The notes beneath the pieces were generated by a model that was given only the letters and a program-made list of their open reading frames with translations, was not told where the DNA came from and ran no database searches. The position numbers and the translations under genes are program-made. A DNA stretch of 49,344 nt from Merismopedia glauca CCAP 1448/3 (GTDB lineage Bacteria > Cyanobacteriota > Cyanobacteriia > Cyanobacteriales > CCAP-1448), in contig NZ_PVWJ01000021.1 in the NCBI RefSeq assembly GCF_003003775.1, positions 1 through 49,344 on the forward strand. Direction: 5' to 3'. Below are positions 8,611 through 49,344 of this stretch, piece by piece (position 1 is the stretch's first letter; each line of letters begins with the position of its first letter).

Positions 8611-10005
8611 ATGACTCTGAGCGCTGAAAGGATTGATTACCGAGAATTATTGCAAAAAGCTTATGTAGAACTCCAAAAAAGTCGCGCTCAGGTGCAGGAA
8701 ATGCGATCGCAGCAAACAGAACCTATCGCTATTGTAGGTATGAGTTGTCGCTTTCCAGGAGGTGCAAATAGCCCAAATGCCTACTGGAAGTTGCTTAAAG
8801 AGGGAAAAAGCGGGATTAAGGAGATTCCAGGCGATCGCTGGGATGTGGATTCTTACTACGATGCAGATTTTAATGCACCTGGGAAAATGTATGTGCGTTC
8901 TGGTGGGTTTATCGATGGTGTAGATACCTTCGATCCTCAGTTTTTCGGGATTTCTGAGCGAGAAGCGGCGGGAATCGATCCACAACAACGGTTGTTATTA
9001 GAGGTAGCTTGGGAAGCTTTAGAAAATGCCGGACAAACCTTAGATAAAGCTACTTTTAAAGAAACTGGTACGTTTATTGGCTCATTTATGGATGATTACC
9101 TGCGTCTGAATACAGGCAATCGGAAGCAAATTGATGCTTATAACAGTTTAGGAACCTTGCGCTGTATGACTGCGGGACGTTTGGCTTATCTGCTGAATTT
9201 GCAAGGTCCCACGATGCAGTTAGATACGGCTTGTTCTTCTTCTCTCGTCGCCGTGCATTTAGCCTGTCAAAGTTTAAGAGCTAGAGAATGCAACATGGCT
9301 CTAGCTGGAGGGGTCAATTTGATGCTGTCTCCCGATGTGACTATCGGTTTATGCAAATTGAGAGCTTTAGCTACTGATGGACGTTGCAAAACCTTTGATG
9401 CAACAGCAGATGGATACGTGCGCGGTGAAGGGTGTGGAGTAATCGTGCTGAAGCGTTTATCGAGTGCTTTAGCTGATGGAGATAATATCCTGGCTACGAT
9501 TCGGGGTTCGGCAATCAATCATGATGGGGCGAGTAATGGTTTAACGGCTCCTAATGGAGTGGCACAAGAAGCTGTGATTCGCAAAGCTTTAGCAAATGCT
9601 GGAGTGCAGCCATCAGAGATTCAATATGTCGAAACTCACGGAACGGGGACATCTTTAGGCGATCCAATTGAGGTTTTAGCTTTAGGAAAAGTGCTAAGTG
9701 AAGCGAGAACTACCGAGCAACCTTTAACTATCGGTTCGGTCAAAACTAATTTTGGTCACCTAGAATCGGCGGCGGGAATGGCTAGTTTGATGAAAGTGGT
9801 ACTTTCTCTACAAAATCAGCAAATTCCGCCCCATTTACATCTCAAAGATCCAAATCCCTATATTCCTTGGCAGAAATTTCCCCTATTAGTTCCCCAAAAA
9901 TTAACCCCTTGGTCAGCTAAAGAAGGTACGCGCCTAGCTGGAGTCAGTTCTTTCGGGATGAGTGGAACTAACGTTCATTTAATTGTGGAGCAAGGAGAAA
10001 ACTAA
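8611..10005 (+). CDS. Free-standing type I ketosynthase (first half of a split PKS module)
   Basis: 464 residues. A short N-terminal helix (RIDYRELLQKAYVELQKSRA, about 7-26) resembles a docking helix. A complete KS domain follows from EPIAIVGMSCRFPGG (about 37). The catalytic Cys is in DTACSSSLVAVH, the two His in VETHGTGT and NFGHLESAAGM, and the domain ends with GMSGTNVHLIVEQ. It should catalyse decarboxylative condensation of the FAAL-loaded acyl chain with a malonyl unit. The AT, KR and ACP of the same module are in the next gene. The gene stops directly after the KS at TAA 10003-10005. AAGGAG at 9993-9998 would have served as ribosome binding site for the next gene before a MITE landed between them. 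Confidence 0.93.
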   Translation: MTLSAERIDYRELLQKAYVELQKSRAQVQEMRSQQTEPIAIVGMSCRFPGGANSPNAYWKLLKEGKSGIKEIPGDRWDVDSYYDADFNAPGKMYVRSGGFIDGVDTFDPQFFGISEREAAGIDPQQRLLLEVAWEALENAGQTLDKATFKETGTFIGSFMDDYLRLNTGNRKQIDAYNSLGTLRCMTAGRLAYLLNLQGPTMQLDTACSSSLVAVHLACQSLRARECNMALAGGVNLMLSPDVTIGLCKLRALATDGRCKTFDATADGYVRGEGCGVIVLKRLSSALADGDNILATIRGSAINHDGASNGLTAPNGVAQEAVIRKALANAGVQPSEIQYVETHGTGTSLGDPIEVLALGKVLSEARTTEQPLTIGSVKTNFGHLESAAGMASLMKVVLSLQNQQIPPHLHLKDPNPYIPWQKFPLLVPQKLTPWSAKEGTRLAGVSSFGMSGTNVHLIVEQGEN

Positions 10006-41539: not shown

Positions 41540-41586
41540 ATTAGATTAAAACATTTAGCGAGTTTAATGTTAAAATTGTAGCTCTT

Positions 41587-41658
41587 GGGCGATTAGCACA
41601 GTGGTAGCGCGCTTCCTTCACACGGAAGATGTCACTGGTTCGAGTCCAGTATCGCCCA
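41587..41658 (+). tRNA. tRNA-Val(CAC)
   Basis: A 72-base cloverleaf. Acceptor GGGCGAT (41587-41593) pairs with ATCGCCC (41651-41657), discriminator A. The anticodon stem CTTCC/GGAAG encloses loop TTCACAC, so the anticodon is CAC for GUG. The T arm ACTGG-TTCGAGT-CCAGT is perfect. CCA is not encoded. Confidence 0.93.
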
Positions 41659-41776
41659 TACAGAAATTACTTACTGTTTAACGATTCAATATACTTCTTA
41701 TGTAAGTATTTGTTTTCACATATTAAATCGTCACATTTTTTTTGAATTAGTTGCCAGGATTAACTTACTACCGCGT

Positions 41777-43539: not shown

Positions 43540-44190
43540 ATGAACGATAGATTAAGTAATTCAAATTCCGATCTCGCCGCAATCATTCTCGCTGGTGGTA
43601 AAAGTTCTCGGATGGGAACAGATAAAGCACTAATCGAGATTGAAGGGATACCTTTAATTCAAAGAATTACCCAGATTGCCCAAGGTTTAACCCCTCAAGT
43701 ATACGTTGTCACCTCTACTCCAGAAAAGTATCAAAGTTATCTCAAAGGGTGCGAACTAGTCAAAGAAATCGATCCCCAAGGACCATTAACGGGCTTTGCT
43801 GAAGGTTTAAGCTGGACACATACCGAATGGGTACTACTGCTGGCTTGTGACCTGCCTAAACTCAAATTAGAGCCACTACAGGAATGGGTATCTAGACTGC
43901 CAGAAATTGCTCCAGAAGCTATAGCTTACCTACCCCATCATCCTAAAGGTTGGGAACCCCTGTGTGGATTCTACGGCCGCAGTAGTTTACCCCACTTACA
44001 AGCATATATTGCCAGTGGCGGGCGATCGTTTCAAGAATGGCTAGCTCAACACCTAGTCATCGAAATTCCTCTAGCTGAGCCAGATTTGTTATTTAACTGC
44101 AATACTCCAGCCGATTTAAATAATATTCTCTCAAATTTCAGTCTGGCTCTAGATAATTGTGACTTAAAGAAAAAGATTGCCGAAAATTAA
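43540..44190 (+). CDS. mobA: Molybdenum cofactor guanylyltransferase, C-terminus altered by a transposon
   Basis: 216 residues. ILAGGKSSRMGTDKALIEIEG is the nucleotide-binding start, and LLACDLPKL the metal-binding site. PHHPKGWEPLCGFYGRSSLPHLQAYI and LFNCNTPADL near the end complete the MobA pattern. It joins GMP to molybdopterin to form the bis-MGD cofactor of enzymes such as nitrate reductase. The last ten codons and the stop (44158-44190) are the left end of the Tn7-like element, so the original C-terminus is lost; the catalytic part is whole. Excising the element would join this frame to the TPR frame at 48178. Confidence 0.9.
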   Translation: MNDRLSNSNSDLAAIILAGGKSSRMGTDKALIEIEGIPLIQRITQIAQGLTPQVYVVTSTPEKYQSYLKGCELVKEIDPQGPLTGFAEGLSWTHTEWVLLLACDLPKLKLEPLQEWVSRLPEIAPEAIAYLPHHPKGWEPLCGFYGRSSLPHLQAYIASGGRSFQEWLAQHLVIEIPLAEPDLLFNCNTPADLNNILSNFSLALDNCDLKKKIAEN

Positions 44191-44205
44191 AGGATAAGCT
44201 TGCCG
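44164..44205 (+). repeat. Left-end TnsB-site-like repeats (two)
   Basis: TTAAAGAAAAAGATTGCCG at 44164-44182 and TTAAAGGATAAGCTTGCCG at 44187-44205, 23 bases apart. They match the first two repeats of the right end in sequence and spacing. Binding by the element's TnsB is inferred from the arrangement in Tn7-type ends. Confidence 0.7.
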
Positions 44206-44226
44206 AAGCCTGATTCAGACTGGCTT

Positions 44227-45234
44227 TTCAGGGGGCGACAAGCGCCCCCAAACCATTAGATAGAGAAGCTTTCAGCCTGTAGACTCTCTGAAAAAATTGC
44301 TCACTTATTGACAACAAACTCTGCAAAAAGAAAAATAGTCAGGATTTATGGTAAAAAGAAACGGTCTCATCAATTCAACAAGACCGTCACCATAAATGTT
44401 CCCACCATTTTATCAAACATTGCTCGAAAAATACCTCACTGCATCACAATTAATTACAATTAAAATGCTGGTCTGGTTGCTTCAGAATCAAAAGCAAGTC
44501 AAGATAGAAAGACTCGCCGCCGCCTTGCCTATACCAATACAACAGAATAGTCGCCGTAGGCATCTACAAAGGTTTTTGAAGTTGGATGTAAAGAAGTGTT
44601 GTTTTGCTATGGTTTCCCATCATTAAAGCCATCATCAATCGCCAATTTAAAATTGGGTCACAACTAATTGTTGCCCTTGATGGAACTAAATGGAAGGAGC
44701 GTAATGTTTTAATGGTTAGTGTCATTATTCAAAACCGAGGTTGGCCCGTATTTTGGTGCTTACTGGAAAAAAAGGGTAGCAGCAATCTACAACAACAACA
44801 ACAAGTTTTACGCCCTGTTATCCGACTTTTAAAAATGTATAAACTAGTGATAATCGGGGATAGAGAATTCCACAGCATTGAACTGGCAAGCTGGCTGAAG
44901 CAAATGAAGGTGAGCTTTGTACTTCGACAGAAAAGCGACACCACATTTCGACAAAAGCTATGACTTCAGCCTGGTTACAAGGACAAAGAATTAAGTTACA
45001 GGGGCAACAACGATATGTTTCTCGGCTAAGTGAGAACGGTAGAAATAGAAGAAGACATAGCAATTTTCTCATCGGTTTAAGTGGTGAAACTTGGATGATA
45101 GCTTTTGATGCGTGTCAGTTATGGGTACAAGAATTCATGTATTTGAATCGCAATAAGAAGTCATTTTATCAACGGGGTTTGAGAGCTATAACGCTGATAC
45201 AGCAACTAACCTAGCCACCTGGTCGCCCCCTGAA
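44227..45234 (+). mobile_element. IS4-like insertion sequence, copy 1
   Basis: TTCAGGGGGCGAC at 44227-44239 and its reverse complement at 45222-45234 are perfect 13-bp terminal repeats around about 1.0 kb. A hairpin ACGGTCT/AGACCGT lies just before the transposase start. The first 220 bases are nearly identical to the copy at 49118-49344 (two differences seen), so movement was recent. Its right end cuts the 3' end of tniQ. I find no clear target duplication. Confidence 0.85.
44396..45214 (+). pseudogene. IS4-like transposase, frameshifted
   Basis: Three overlapping frames (44396-44626, 44604-44963, 44960-45214) together give one transposase: FPPFYQTLLEKYLTASQLI, then KIGSQLIVALDGTKWKERN, then KLVIIGDREFHSIELASWL. 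LDGT and GDREF carry the first two acidic residues of an IS4-type DDE site. Frameshifts near 44605-44620 and 44955 break it. The second copy may be the source of active enzyme, but only its start is in the window. Confidence 0.85.
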
Positions 45235-46459
45235 CCTGACGCTTTAAAGTTGCATAATCAGTAGCTCTTTTCTTAATAGCAGTGGCTAAAGATTTTGAAA
45301 TATGAGTTAAAGGGCTGTAACTTTTATATCCAAGACGATAAGCTAACTGGGTAAGAGTTGGCGGATGTTCTTCAAATAATGCTTGTTGCATTGCTGCTCT
45401 TGTAGCTTCAATATCTTGCCTACTGCTATAAGTAACAGAAGATTTTCTTCGGCGTTGGCTAGTTTTGGACGCTAAAATAGCTAGTTTATCAAGAGTTATT
45501 TGATTAACCTTGACTTGGAGAAAATCAACAACAGAAGTAGAGAGTGTGTAACAGATTTTCAGTAACTCAGAAATAATAGGAATTGTTGAACCTTGATGCC
45601 AATGAAGAAATTTATAATGATTGACTCGCAAGAAACGACCTAAAGCTGAAATATTACCATTGGTTAATTGATTAGCATAAAGCTTGATAGCTTTATTAAT
45701 ACTATCTCTTGGAGGTATAGAGTTAAATAAAACAGCTTTTGAAAGTAATTCTCCTAAAGCACTAGCCACCCAAATATCCCATTCAAGAGATTGAGCTATA
45801 TTTGGACAATGCTGTAGAACAGAAGAATAATGTCCGCCCAACCAAGCATCACATTTTAAGCAATACCCTGGACGAGTCGTCTGCCAAAGAGGTACAAATT
45901 TTTGATGGCACTGAGGACAAATAGATTGCAAAGGTCGATGATGCTCCAAACAAATGTTGACAGATTGAAGCGACCATAATAAAGGAGAGTAAATCACTTT
46001 TGAGCTATCACGCCATTCTTGATAACACTGAGGACACCATGCAAAATCAGTCCTAAGTAACTCTTGAGATGGCAAAACTTCTGCCCAAGTCAGCAGTGTT
46101 AAAAACTCCAAATCATCGCGCAGAGTAAGTTGATTCAAAGCGGCTACGAATTGCTTGGCTTTTACAGAAGTTCCATTTAAAGATTTAATATAATATTGTC
46201 CATATACTTTTACTAAACTAGGGTAATAATACTGTTGTATATCATCTGATTTAGAGAATTTTTTGTGAATTTCAGCAGCGATTAAAGTTCCGACAGCCAC
46301 ACTATGAGCTTCGGCTAAACGAGCAACGTAGCTAGTTATACTCTCCACATAAGGCGTTCCGATTCCTATCGGTTCAAGATGGAATAAAGAACTACGCGGT
46401 GGAATCTTAGGGCGTTCTAAGTCCCATAATTCATCAGTTTGATTAACATCAACTTTCAT
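45206..46459 (-). CDS. tniQ: TniQ/TnsD-like target-selection protein, 3' end cut by an IS
   Basis: 417 residues in frame. An N-terminal TniQ domain (PIGIGTPYVESITSYVARLAEAHSV) is followed by zinc-binding motifs CPQCYQEW, CPQCHQKF and CLKC (about 145-205). A C-terminal helix-turn-helix-like stretch (TLTQLAYRLGYKSYSPLTHISKSLATAI) follows. TniQ links the target to the TnsC ATPase in Tn7-like elements. The last codons after KRQV come from the IS end, so the natural C-terminus is lost. Its ATG overlaps the end of the tnsC remnant by 11 bases, the usual coupling. Longer than the TniQ of type V-K CRISPR elements. Confidence 0.85.
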   Translation of the reverse strand: MKVDVNQTDELWDLERPKIPPRSSLFHLEPIGIGTPYVESITSYVARLAEAHSVAVGTLIAAEIHKKFSKSDDIQQYYYPSLVKVYGQYYIKSLNGTSVKAKQFVAALNQLTLRDDLEFLTLLTWAEVLPSQELLRTDFAWCPQCYQEWRDSSKVIYSPLLWSLQSVNICLEHHRPLQSICPQCHQKFVPLWQTTRPGYCLKCDAWLGGHYSSVLQHCPNIAQSLEWDIWVASALGELLSKAVLFNSIPPRDSINKAIKLYANQLTNGNISALGRFLRVNHYKFLHWHQGSTIPIISELLKICYTLSTSVVDFLQVKVNQITLDKLAILASKTSQRRRKSSVTYSSRQDIEATRAAMQQALFEEHPPTLTQLAYRLGYKSYSPLTHISKSLATAIKKRATDYATLKRQVQGATRWLG

Positions 46460-47420
46460 TATCTTGTGTCCCTACAGGATCTCGTTTTGGTTTTCGTTTC
46501 CCAACACGTCCTTTCTTAAGAGAAGCTCCCTGTACTACATCAGGAGTAACAGAAGTAGTTAAATTTCCTATGAAGTAATAATTAGACTCTTGCTTGAGGC
46601 GTAATTGACCCTGCTCTGATTCTTGAAAAATCTGGTTAATTCGTCCTTGGCTGAAAGCTCCCTGCTCCAAATGTTTAATAGTTAATGTTGCTGCATCTTC
46701 TTCATAAGCAAATCTCAATGAACGAGTCAACCAATTTTTAAGAATTCCCACACAACCGACTGAACCAGAAAATAGATATTCGTAATAATTTTCTAAATAA
46801 GGTTCTTCTTCTAAGGGAAGATGCTTCTGCAATGTTCTAATAACCCTAATAAATTCAGTAACATCTTCAGCCTCATCAAGTTGGTAAGGAGTTAAATGAA
46901 TATCTTCACTACGTCTTCCTACTTGTCCATTGAGAGTTGAACAATTAAGAAGCTCATAAGTTCCAAATAAGATATGTACTGTTCCCGTCAGATTCGCAAT
47001 TGATTTAATCCAATTCATTTGATGCAGCATTTGGTGTCCACCGGACATCATTAACAAATGTTGAGCTTCATCTACTAGGAAACATCTTAACTGGCGATAC
47101 CGAAATACCTTTTCCATTATTGCTTCTTTTGCTTCTGCTTCTTCAAGGTAAGCTGCTCTTTCCTTAGCTGTTAAATTGATTCTTTTACTAGATTTCTGTC
47201 GAGTGCGACGTAATTCAACTGTGGCTAATTTAACTTCTCGCTCTGAACGATTCTGGAAAGATTTATAATATTGGGAAATACACCGAATCCACTGCCCTTT
47301 GACATAAGCATAAGCTGTTCCCATGTCAAAAGGGTCATAACGCACTGGGACATCTGTCCTTTCTATTTCTGGTTGGATAAACGAATCATCTATTGACCAA
47401 TAAGTAAAGGTAATTTTTGG
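46449..47420 (-). pseudogene. TnsB C-terminus fused to TnsC C-terminal part by deletion
   Basis: The frame begins in the TnsB C-terminal barrel (TYWSIDDSFIQPEIERTDVP, VRYDPFDMGTAYAYVKGQW, SEREVKLATVELRRTRQ) and passes near codon 80 of the GTG-started part directly into TnsC (YRQLRCFLVDEAQHLLMMSG with Walker B, then FGTYELLNCSTLNGQVGRRS). The Walker A part and TnsC N-terminus are absent, so no working ATPase is expected. Fusion without a stop means the deletion happened to stay in frame. The usual GTG 47345 start is not natural. Confidence 0.85.
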
Positions 47421-47992
47421 TTATTTGCGTGTTTCCTTGAAGATGAGGCGGAGTGGTTAAGTCTAATTCCCAGTAGAAGGCTGATTGCTGATAAGCTGCA
47501 CGAGAACCAAGCCGTTTTTTAGTTTGTTCATAACCGGAACGTTGCTTGATTCTGTGGCAGAAAGTCACATAGCTTGGTAGTTCCTCTGGATTTTTGGTTT
47601 TTTCCCATTCGTGTCTCAAAACTCCGTAAACTGCCATTCTCCCTTTTTGTTTGAGCGTTTCGTATGACAAAAAAATCTGGAACATGAGTCACTGTTACCG
47701 TTCTGCCATTTTTGGCTTTGACTTTTAGGCTAAGACGGTAGGGTTGATCATAGTATTCCAAAACATCATTGTCTTGCTCATATTCTTCGCTTGCTGGTAA
47801 TTCCACTTTATGGGACTCGAACTGAATTGTTCTGCCCATTTTCATACTGGAGTAACTGCCAACAACGTTGATTCCATTGCTTCTGACTCGCCGCACAGGT
47901 TCTGATGACCGAATTTGTTCAATCACAGAACGCGCTTGTCCTGATATTTTGAAGCGGTGACACCAATTCTCAAACTCTTGTGCGTTGAGCAT
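47386..47992 (-). pseudogene. TnsA-like domain joined to TnsB N-terminal fragment, core deleted
   Basis: From ATG 47992: MLNAQEFENWCHRFKISGQA, KMGRTIQFESHKVELP, DVLEYYDQPYRL and HVPDFFVI give an N-terminal TnsA-like endonuclease domain, with Asp in PDFF. The frame then changes (47700-47640) to YETLKQKGRMAVYGVLRHEW and PSYVTFCHRIKQR, KRLGSRAAYQQSAFYWELDL, TTPPH, the part of TnsB just before its catalytic core. The DDE core is gone and the frame ends at 47386. The TnsA-type and TnsB-type parts suggest the ancestor encoded a fused TnsA-TnsB protein. Confidence 0.82.
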
Positions 47993-48020
47993 TTTTACTA
48001 AAAAAAGTGGCTTGGACTCA

Positions 48021-48171
48021 CGGCAGGCTTTGACTTAAATTCTTCGGACTGGTGGCAACTTTATCATTTAACTGAAGTCCAACACCTACTTGGCACAAAT
48101 CGTAATAATCAGGCTTACAGGCTTTGATGCGGCAAGCTTATCCTTTAATTTTCGGCAATCTTTTCCTTTAA
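48021..48171 (-). repeat. Right-end TnsB-site-like repeats (four)
   Basis: On the minus strand from the end inward: TTAAAGGAAAAGATTGCCG (48171-48153), TTAAAGGATAAGCTTGCCG (48148-48130), TTAAATGATAAAGTTGCCA (48071-48053) and TTTAAGTCAAAGCCTGCCG (48039-48021). The first two match the left end in spacing. More sites at one end than the other is the rule in Tn7-type elements. Confidence 0.7.
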
Positions 48172-49142
48172 GTCACAATAGTTATGAAATTCCAACTCTA
48201 AGATCGGCAATTTTACAAGAGAAGGCACATTTACGAGCAGCCTATTACTGGCTTAATTTGTACGCTCCTAGTACCAACGCCTCTTGTCTAGAAAGAACGC
48301 GAGGGTGTTTGGAAGCTGCGCATCATTTGAGACAGATTCAAGCATGGAAACTAATTAGTCAGATTTTGTGGCTCCAGCTTGAGGGTGAAGGATCTGGCTT
48401 TTTGTACCAACAACTGGGAGATTCTGGACTTTTTAAAGAGCAAATAGATCTATATCTTCCTCTAGTTGGAAAAACCGATGAGTTTCTCGATCTCCTCTGC
48501 TGGCAGGGATTAGGAGAAGCTTATACCCATTTAGGTCGATATCAACAAGCAATAGAGGCTTTTAAGAGTTTACTCCAACTAGCGCGTCAAAAATCTCATC
48601 TTTTAGTAGAAGCACGAGCTTTAGAAGGTTTAGGACGTTGTTACGGAAATTGGGGAAACTATCAAACTGCTCGAGCTTATTGCCAAGAAAGCTGGTATTG
48701 CTTAGATCAATTTAAAGACGAGGGCGATAGAAATAGCGATATTAAACAACAAAAAGGTCAAACTTTAGCAACATTGAGCTATGTCGCGATCCATTTACGG
48801 CAATATCGACGAGCGATCGCTTGTGGCGAACAAGCTTTGGCGATCGCCCGTGAAATAGACGATCTGGAAACTCAATGGTATGCTCTTGGCAGATTAGCTA
48901 TCTCTTACGCTCAACTAGGTCAAGGTCAAAAAGCCTTTAGATCTCTAGAGCAACAGTATCGACAACGCCATCAAAACCAGGATTTGAGGCAAGTTAGCGC
49001 TCTCTTAATTAATTTTGGTCTTATATGTTGCTATCAGCGCAAATTCCAGCTAGCAAGCCAATGTGTGCAGGAATCTTGGGAAATTCATCAGCAGATGGGC
49101 GATGCTAACGGTCAATGTTCAGGGGGCGACAAGCGCCCCTAA
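48090..49142 (+). pseudogene. TPR-repeat protein fragment, truncated at both ends by mobile elements
   Basis: The open frame starts in the Tn7-like end (to 48177) and ends in the second IS (from 49118), so native sequence is 48178-49117, about 313 codons. It has several TPR units: WQGLGEAYTHLGRYQQAIEAF, EGLGRCYGNWGNYQTARAYC, LSYVAIHLRQYRRAIACGEQ, LGRLAISYAQLGQGQKAFRS. Two GCGATCGC sites show it is native chromosome. The segment YEIPTLRSAILQEKAHLRAA looks like the inner part of a longer cyanobacterial TPR signalling protein; its original start is not visible. Confidence 0.75.
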
Positions 49143-49344
49143 ACCATTAGATAGAGAAGCTTTCAGCCTGTAGACTCTCTGAAAAAATTGCTCACTTATT
49201 GACAACAAACTCTGCAAAAAGAAAAATAGTCAGGATTTATGGTAAAAAGAAACGGTCTCATCAATTAAACAAGACCGTCACCATAAATGTTCCCACCATT
49301 TTATCAAACATTGCTCGAAAAATACCTCACTGCATCACAATTAA
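49118..49344 (+). mobile_element. IS4-like insertion sequence, copy 2 (runs off the window)
   Basis: TTCAGGGGGCGAC at 49118-49130 starts a copy nearly identical to 44227 onward. The only differences I see in about 220 bases are one base near 49140 and one near 49266. It cuts the TPR gene. Confidence 0.85.
49287..49344 (+). CDS. IS4-like transposase, 5' partial
   Basis: ATG 49287 opens MFPPFYQTLLEKYLTASQL, identical to the start of copy 1. The gene continues past the window edge, so whether it is intact cannot be judged here. Confidence 0.8.
   Translation, partial: MFPPFYQTLLEKYLTASQL

Follow-up and report, generated by a model that had tools for sequence, protein, structure and literature searches.

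The window analysed here is a stretch of 49,344 nucleotides from the cyanobacterium Merismopedia glauca CCAP 1448/3 (contig NZ_PVWJ01000021.1, positions 1 to 49,344; contig C21 of the host genome). At positions 44158-48177, it holds the remains of a Tn7-like element. We interpret this element, with a probability of about 92%, as an internally deleted and recently inactivated copy of a compact cyanobacterial Tn7-like transposon without cargo, which encodes a TnsAB fusion, TnsC, and one TnsD-type TniQ. This interpretation was reached by comparing the window copy with an intact copy of the same transposon found in Nostoc sp. FACHB-110. The original prediction, made from the letters of the window alone, had also described a Tn7-like element collapsed by internal deletions, and the intact parent, which shares 97-100% identity with every tns segment that the window has kept, now fixes the breakpoints.

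An intact parent and the losses in the window copy

The intact copy (NZ_JACJRU010000020.1, locus L087, 4111-9694, 5.5-5.6 kb) was the single locus recovered when named genomes were queried with the TniQ remnant of the window. Between its ends lie open reading frames (ORFs) for TnsAB (860 aa), TnsC (379 aa), and TnsD/TniQ (524 aa), with no further ORF of at least 90 aa. The window element matches this locus in its ends, in its gene order, and in five successive segments (98% over 524 bp, 99% over 222 bp, 100% over 29 bp, 98% over 304 bp, and 97% over 1883 bp), and the left ends are 95% identical over 73 bp. In contrast to the window element, the Nostoc copy has complete tnsAB, tnsC, and tnsD genes and no internal insertion sequence (IS). 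One of its transposon ends is also duplicated in tandem, at 9596-9694 of the Nostoc locus.

Compared with this parent, the window copy lacks 830, 387, 282, and 674 bp in four tns deletions, and a further ~350 bp, including the last 117 codons of tnsD, has been replaced by an IS4-like insertion. With a near-identical intact parent at hand, the position of each break is resolved to a few bases (Table 1). Microhomology at junctions 2-4, judged by eye, amounts to 0-2 bp. The lengths of deletions 2 and 3 are divisible by three, and these two deletions, which surround an island of 29 bp, may represent one complex event. At junction 4, the sequence bears out the predicted in-frame join of TnsB to TnsC.

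The pieces of tnsA, tnsB, tnsC, and tniQ lie in one cluster, in that order, on the minus strand, the gene content of a Tn7-like element in an inactive copy. The original prediction had this order right; it had also listed TniQ among what remains, yet TniQ is not whole, since its last 117 codons were replaced by the IS, an insertion that had been overlooked. In addition, TnsA is itself cut, before its EEWK motif. The predicted absence of the DDE core and of Walker A is evident against the Nostoc proteins. In parent numbering, TnsB has lost HIDHT 469, VVDGG 538, and SVIER 573, TnsA has lost EEWK 118 (numbered on TnsAB), TnsC has lost GVTGVGKTT 59, and TnsD has lost everything beyond residue 407. 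We take the first three to be the DDE motifs of TnsB, EEWK to be the active-site motif of TnsA, and GVTGVGKTT to be Walker A, which fits the alignments to solved chains. The motifs by which an autonomous Tn7-like element would be recognized (catalytic TnsA and TnsB, ATP-binding TnsC) are thus deleted and, judged from the sequence, no complete Tns protein remains. The open frames that are left span 222 codons (tnsC) and 408 codons (tniQ).

Table 1 Features of the Tn7-like element and its borders in the window
Feature	Positions	Strand	Remarks
Left copy of target-site duplication	44153..44157	.	ATAAT; 4/5 match to right flank
Left terminal inverted repeat	44158..44205	+	two TnsB-site-like repeats (44164-44182, 44187-44205)
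IS4-like insertion sequence	44227..45235 (approx.)	+	transposase frame in 3 pieces, DDE_Tnp_1 in one
tniQ/tnsD remnant	45236..46459	-	corresponds to residues 1-407 of the 524-aa parent protein; ORF continues to 45206 within the IS
tnsC C-terminal part	46449..47118	-	DEAQH stretch retained, Walker A gone
Deletion junction 4	47112..47118	-	674 bp lost; tnsB frame joined in frame to tnsC frame
tnsB C-terminal part	47112..47415	-	tail gone; 1-nt insertion near 47402
tnsB island of 29 bp	47416..47444	-	flanked by deletion 2 (387 bp, DDE core) and deletion 3 (282 bp)
tnsB part directly upstream of DDE core	47443..47664	-	
Deletion junction 1	47658..47664	-	830 bp lost; frame-shifting; short imperfect repeat (7 nt)
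tnsA N-terminal part	47658..47992	-	ends after PDFFV
Two inner TnsB-site-like repeats of right end	48021..48071	-	48021-48039, 48053-48071; weaker (4 and 5 mismatches)
Right terminal inverted repeat	48130..48177	-	two TnsB-site-like repeats (48130-48148, 48153-48171)
Right copy of target-site duplication	48178..48182	.	ATAGT; 4/5 match to left flank

The outer limits of the element agree with those first predicted. The arms at 44156-44205 and 48130-48179 are inverted, facing, and 98% complementary over 50 nt, the terminal inverted repeats match at 47 of 48 bp (about 48 bp had been predicted), and the element begins and ends with TGTGAC...GTCACA. A scan for TTAAAGGATAAGCTTGCCG over 44108-48227, allowing up to 5 mismatches, found exactly six sites, of which two belong to the left end and four to the right one, with none in the interior of the element; 300 shuffles treated in the same way gave a mean of 0.09 sites and a maximum of 2. 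The expectation of two and four site-like repeats therefore holds, the two inner right sites being weak. When 6 mismatches were allowed, one interior site was added (46675-46693), and shuffles then reached up to 4. By sequence, such TnsB-site-like multi-repeat ends with TGT...ACA termini are those of a Tn7-like element. The near 5-bp duplication that had been proposed is also present, as a 4/5 match; in a second full element of the subfamily, L043, the duplication is 5/5.

Insertion site, origin, and age of the element

The element sits 13 codons beyond the NTPADL stretch of mobA, and the mobA gene of relatives stops within ~20 codons of NTPADL in 13 of 14 cases. The frame continues in the remaining one, L117 (G007), where an open frame of 489 aa joins MobA to a second, long domain. 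When the element and one copy of the duplication are removed, the mobA frame of the window (43540-44157) continues without a stop into a TPR frame (48183-49117); on this basis, the insertion may have split a MobA-TPR reading frame. An empty site was sought via the TPR gene, whose repeats match widely, and no mobA was found in the 12 loci retrieved (own locus included); likewise, none of the 14 mobA loci gave a TPR match. A tRNA attachment site was considered and rejected, as no tRNA was found in 10 relatives and none is adjacent in the window, where the nearest one noted (tRNA-Val, 41586-41659) is 2.5 kb from the element. A second IS4-like copy, 99% identical over 227 nt, lies at 49118-49344, where it interrupts the TPR ORF at the end of the contig.

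MobA of the host is 60% identical to that of one other genome of its family, while the element has ~97-99% DNA identity to the Nostoc copy, which points, on these sequence comparisons, to horizontal spread of the element to this host. The transposon would then have inserted immediately beyond the 3' end of mobA through ordinary cut-and-paste transposition. End joining, with minimal or no microhomology at the junctions, would have removed its interior. The copy can no longer move itself; it could be moved only with a same-family TnsAB-TnsC-TniQ set in the cell.

Between the window and the Nostoc copy, the C-terminal part of tnsC shows 6 synonymous and 2 nonsynonymous differences (ratio of nonsynonymous to synonymous rates, dN/dS, 0.09), and tnsD shows 19.5 synonymous and 24.5 nonsynonymous differences (dN/dS 0.34). 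Because these ratios are low, most of the divergence seems to predate the collapse, the counts being small. Polarization with the relative L041 assigned 7 (4+3) synonymous and 3 (2+1) nonsynonymous changes to the window branch; another 31 changes, all in tnsD (10 synonymous and 21 nonsynonymous), resisted polarization.

Several points weigh against the interpretation of a recently inactivated, internally deleted copy. One of the five positions of the target duplication is mismatched, and the Nostoc copy itself borders on flanks without a target duplication (TCTAT / CATAG or GTTCG). The junctions are known from a draft assembly alone, and the deletions may precede or follow the insertion at this site. 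The low dN/dS of tnsC, with its tiny counts, might equally reflect continuing constraint on the remnant.

Relatives, short elements, and movement in trans

The main alternative is that the window copy is a working non-autonomous element, a deletion derivative made elsewhere and carried here in trans by an intact relative. It is consistent with the intact ends of the window element. End-like sequences were detected in at least 31 of 388 genomes of the order, host genome included, a lower bound given that two first-look candidates were scored per genome. An audit of the ends, made without hand-picking, covered all 141 retrieved loci, with 54 shifted positions as a control. Facing ends were found at 19 of these loci, in 28 distinct pairs. 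Perfect 5-bp duplications flank six pairs: the full element L043 and five gene-less short elements, namely L047 (274 bp), L057 (201 bp), L062 (508 bp), L068 (773 bp), and L070 (415 bp). The window element and L011 (274 bp) have a 4/5 duplication. At the shifted positions, perfect duplications occurred at a mean of 0.09 (maximum 1) and duplications of at least 4/5 at a mean of 0.63. Eleven loci have facing ends without a duplication (L009, L010, L012, L046, L048, L051, L066, L073, L087, L100, and L105).

The longest stop-free frame in the duplication-flanked short elements is 37-95 codons. Since six pairs of ends, five of them on gene-less elements, carry perfect duplications against a control mean of 0.09, the transposase of this family seems to act in trans on gene-less elements. 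It should be noted that this supports trans action for the family and not for the window copy. Two end layouts were observed, one with the second site direct (window, L047) and one with it inverted (L043, L062, L068, and L070); therefore, most of the duplication-flanked short elements lie outside the window's own subgroup. Relatives of L047, most of them partial, are scattered over 29 of 368 genomes, host genome included; its source genome (G373) gave no row in this sample and is probably outside it.

For the window copy itself, the observations do not favor carriage in trans. It is present as a single copy in its own genome, whereas an element resembling a miniature inverted-repeat transposable element (MITE) would be expected in more copies of the same deletion derivative. 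No copy with the same set of deletions was found among the matches listed for the 388 genomes, with two first-look candidates scored in each, and the nearest relative after the Nostoc copy, L041 (G124:C38; 92% over 1178 bp), has kept tnsC and carries its own, different tnsB deletion. Furthermore, as another copy of the IS lies in the flank, the IS insertion, at least, seems to have occurred in place. Finally, the host genome yielded no intact tns set bounded by these ends. We thus regard carriage in trans as an unlikely origin for this copy.

This last result was obtained from a 5.2-Mb draft assembly of 254 contigs with a stated completeness of 99.97. In a search of this genome with the whole Nostoc element, the retained pieces were found on C21, at 95-100%, and the missing DNA was not found elsewhere at high identity; the two ends also matched each other at 90-96%. 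Four pieces of the Nostoc element matched contigs C221 and C64 at 66-90%, only one of them (66%, C221) in a deleted segment. The rest of the host assembly yielded neither a second copy of these ends nor a complete tns set carrying them, and the window remnant was the only match in a TniQ profile search of the host genome. The original prediction had suggested looking in the genome for a full element with the same ends: none was found in the host, and the intact copy turned up in Nostoc sp. FACHB-110 instead. Its idea that the element may still be moved in trans by an intact relative fares better for the family, given the gene-less elements with related ends elsewhere, than for this host, where such a relative was not found.

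The only other TnsAB/TnsC sets seen in the host belong to another Tn7-like family. They are encoded on C64 (G000:C64, L014, 5082-9241; TnsAB of 902 aa and TnsC of 484 aa, followed by a LuxR-HTH + AAA_35 protein) and on C221 (G000:C221, L013, 26-2658; partial TnsAB and TnsC of 516 aa). Identity of the C64 proteins to their counterparts in the Nostoc copy is 41% for TnsAB and 29-32% for TnsC. The TniQ of this second family lies in an assembly gap, is too diverged, or is dispensed with. We rejected these sets as likely drivers of the window element, as no end at up to 7/25 mismatches was found in either stretch; both contigs stop near the tns genes, so their transposon ends may be missing.

Other relatives were also noted. 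In L041, the tnsB deletion (9636-9638) starts ~18 bp from the start of the DDE-core deletion of the window, which may be a hotspot or chance. On a plasmid of Nostoc sp. C057, L007 (7365-9510) is a remnant with a TniQ of 528 aa and a 190-aa match to the C-terminus of TnsC; its neighbors are a transposase gene of IS5 type and another Tn7-like set, which is annotated as several short pieces. A near-match search of phages gave no match, and viral contigs contained no exact match to an element end or to junction 4.

Two further explanations were weighed. The remnant could have been kept for a function, with the in-frame TnsB-TnsC fusion and TniQ acting as a dominant-negative blocker of related transposons, as the in-frame join, the 222- and 408-codon frames, and the low tnsC dN/dS might suggest. 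We find this very improbable: neither the tail of TnsB nor Walker A is present in the fusion, which is situated behind frame-shifts, TniQ has lost its C-terminus, open frames are unsurprising at ~2-3% divergence, and two other relatives (L041 and L007) are broken in different ways. Least credible is an assembly artefact, for which the 254-contig draft and a contig terminating in a copy of the same IS could be invoked, because the four tns junctions show at most a short imperfect repeat, so that repeat collapse offers no explanation, and the missing parts are absent from the other contigs at high identity despite the stated completeness.

Family assignment and implications

The best solved-structure match of TnsAB is chain M of 9bw1, both for the Nostoc copy (888 bits) and for L043 (978 bits). 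The TniQ proteins of these two elements are closer to TnsD of 8v32/9bw1 than to the TniQ 8fcu_P, and the window remnant follows the same pattern (266 bits for TnsD 8v32_J and 151 bits for TniQ 8fcu_P). We take 9bw1, 8v32, and 8fcu to be type I-B entries. The window element is a member of the fused-TnsAB branch, to which the I-B2 and I-D CRISPR-associated transposons (CASTs; CRISPR, clustered regularly interspaced short palindromic repeats) belong. According to one review, the fused-TnsAB elements of cyanobacteria include, besides the I-B2 and I-D CASTs, non-CRISPR elements that are still unstudied, and a 5-bp target duplication is general for Tn7-like elements (PMC11406308).

The core of TnsAB, TnsC, and TnsD is shared with the I-B2/I-D CASTs; the differences are that the parent has no other ORF of at least 90 aa, a single TniQ, and no tRNA gene beside the insertion. 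L043, which spans 5718 bp and is flanked by a perfect duplication of TTAAG, likewise encodes these three genes and no further internal ORF of at least 100 aa. The prediction that no CRISPR parts are present fits both the window element and the Nostoc copy: only the three tns ORFs were found in the Nostoc copy (at least 90 aa) and in L043 (at least 100 aa), no cas profile search having been run. The same review describes Tn5469 of Fremyella diplosiphon as free of cargo, with a single TniQ and, apparently, without preference for a target (PMC11406308). The Nostoc copy and L043 resemble it, by description and not by sequence, in being cyanobacterial, Tn7-like, and cargo-free with one TniQ. L012, a 4909-bp end-like pair in Tolypothrix PCC 7601 without a duplication, may be Tn5469, to go by the length and strain of the latter.

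As stated in one survey, 96% of its Tn7-like transposons carry at least something (PMC8649781). If this is read as cargo, cargo-free Tn7-like elements would be a minority. Like bacterial MITEs and other internally deleted transposons, the window copy has kept its ends, has lost its coding part, and would need a transposase in trans; unlike MITEs, it retains ~3 kb of tns sequence and is a single copy. Judged by title and the start of the abstract, none of the papers covered, few of them from subscription journals, dealt with Tn7-like MITEs or deletion derivatives, which makes for a weak negative; in the portion of a 2024 review of prokaryotic MITEs consulted, 'Tn7' occurs twice, for the attachment site and in a reference.

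We tentatively propose, at less than even odds, that there is a class of Tn7-family non-autonomous elements, from deleted copies to gene-less elements of ~200-770 bp, that are mobilized in trans with normal 5-bp duplications by cyanobacterial fused-TnsAB transposons, the deletion derivatives being born in bursts of end joining when the excision gap is repaired uncleanly. The window copy itself is, for the most part, a dead element of an ordinary sort, whose history is unusually clear and whose loss is unusually well documented, and it shows decay driven by deletions more than by point changes. The related ends on tiny duplication-flanked elements suggest, in turn, that the transposase branch of the I-B2/I-D CASTs naturally moves gene-less DNA in trans.

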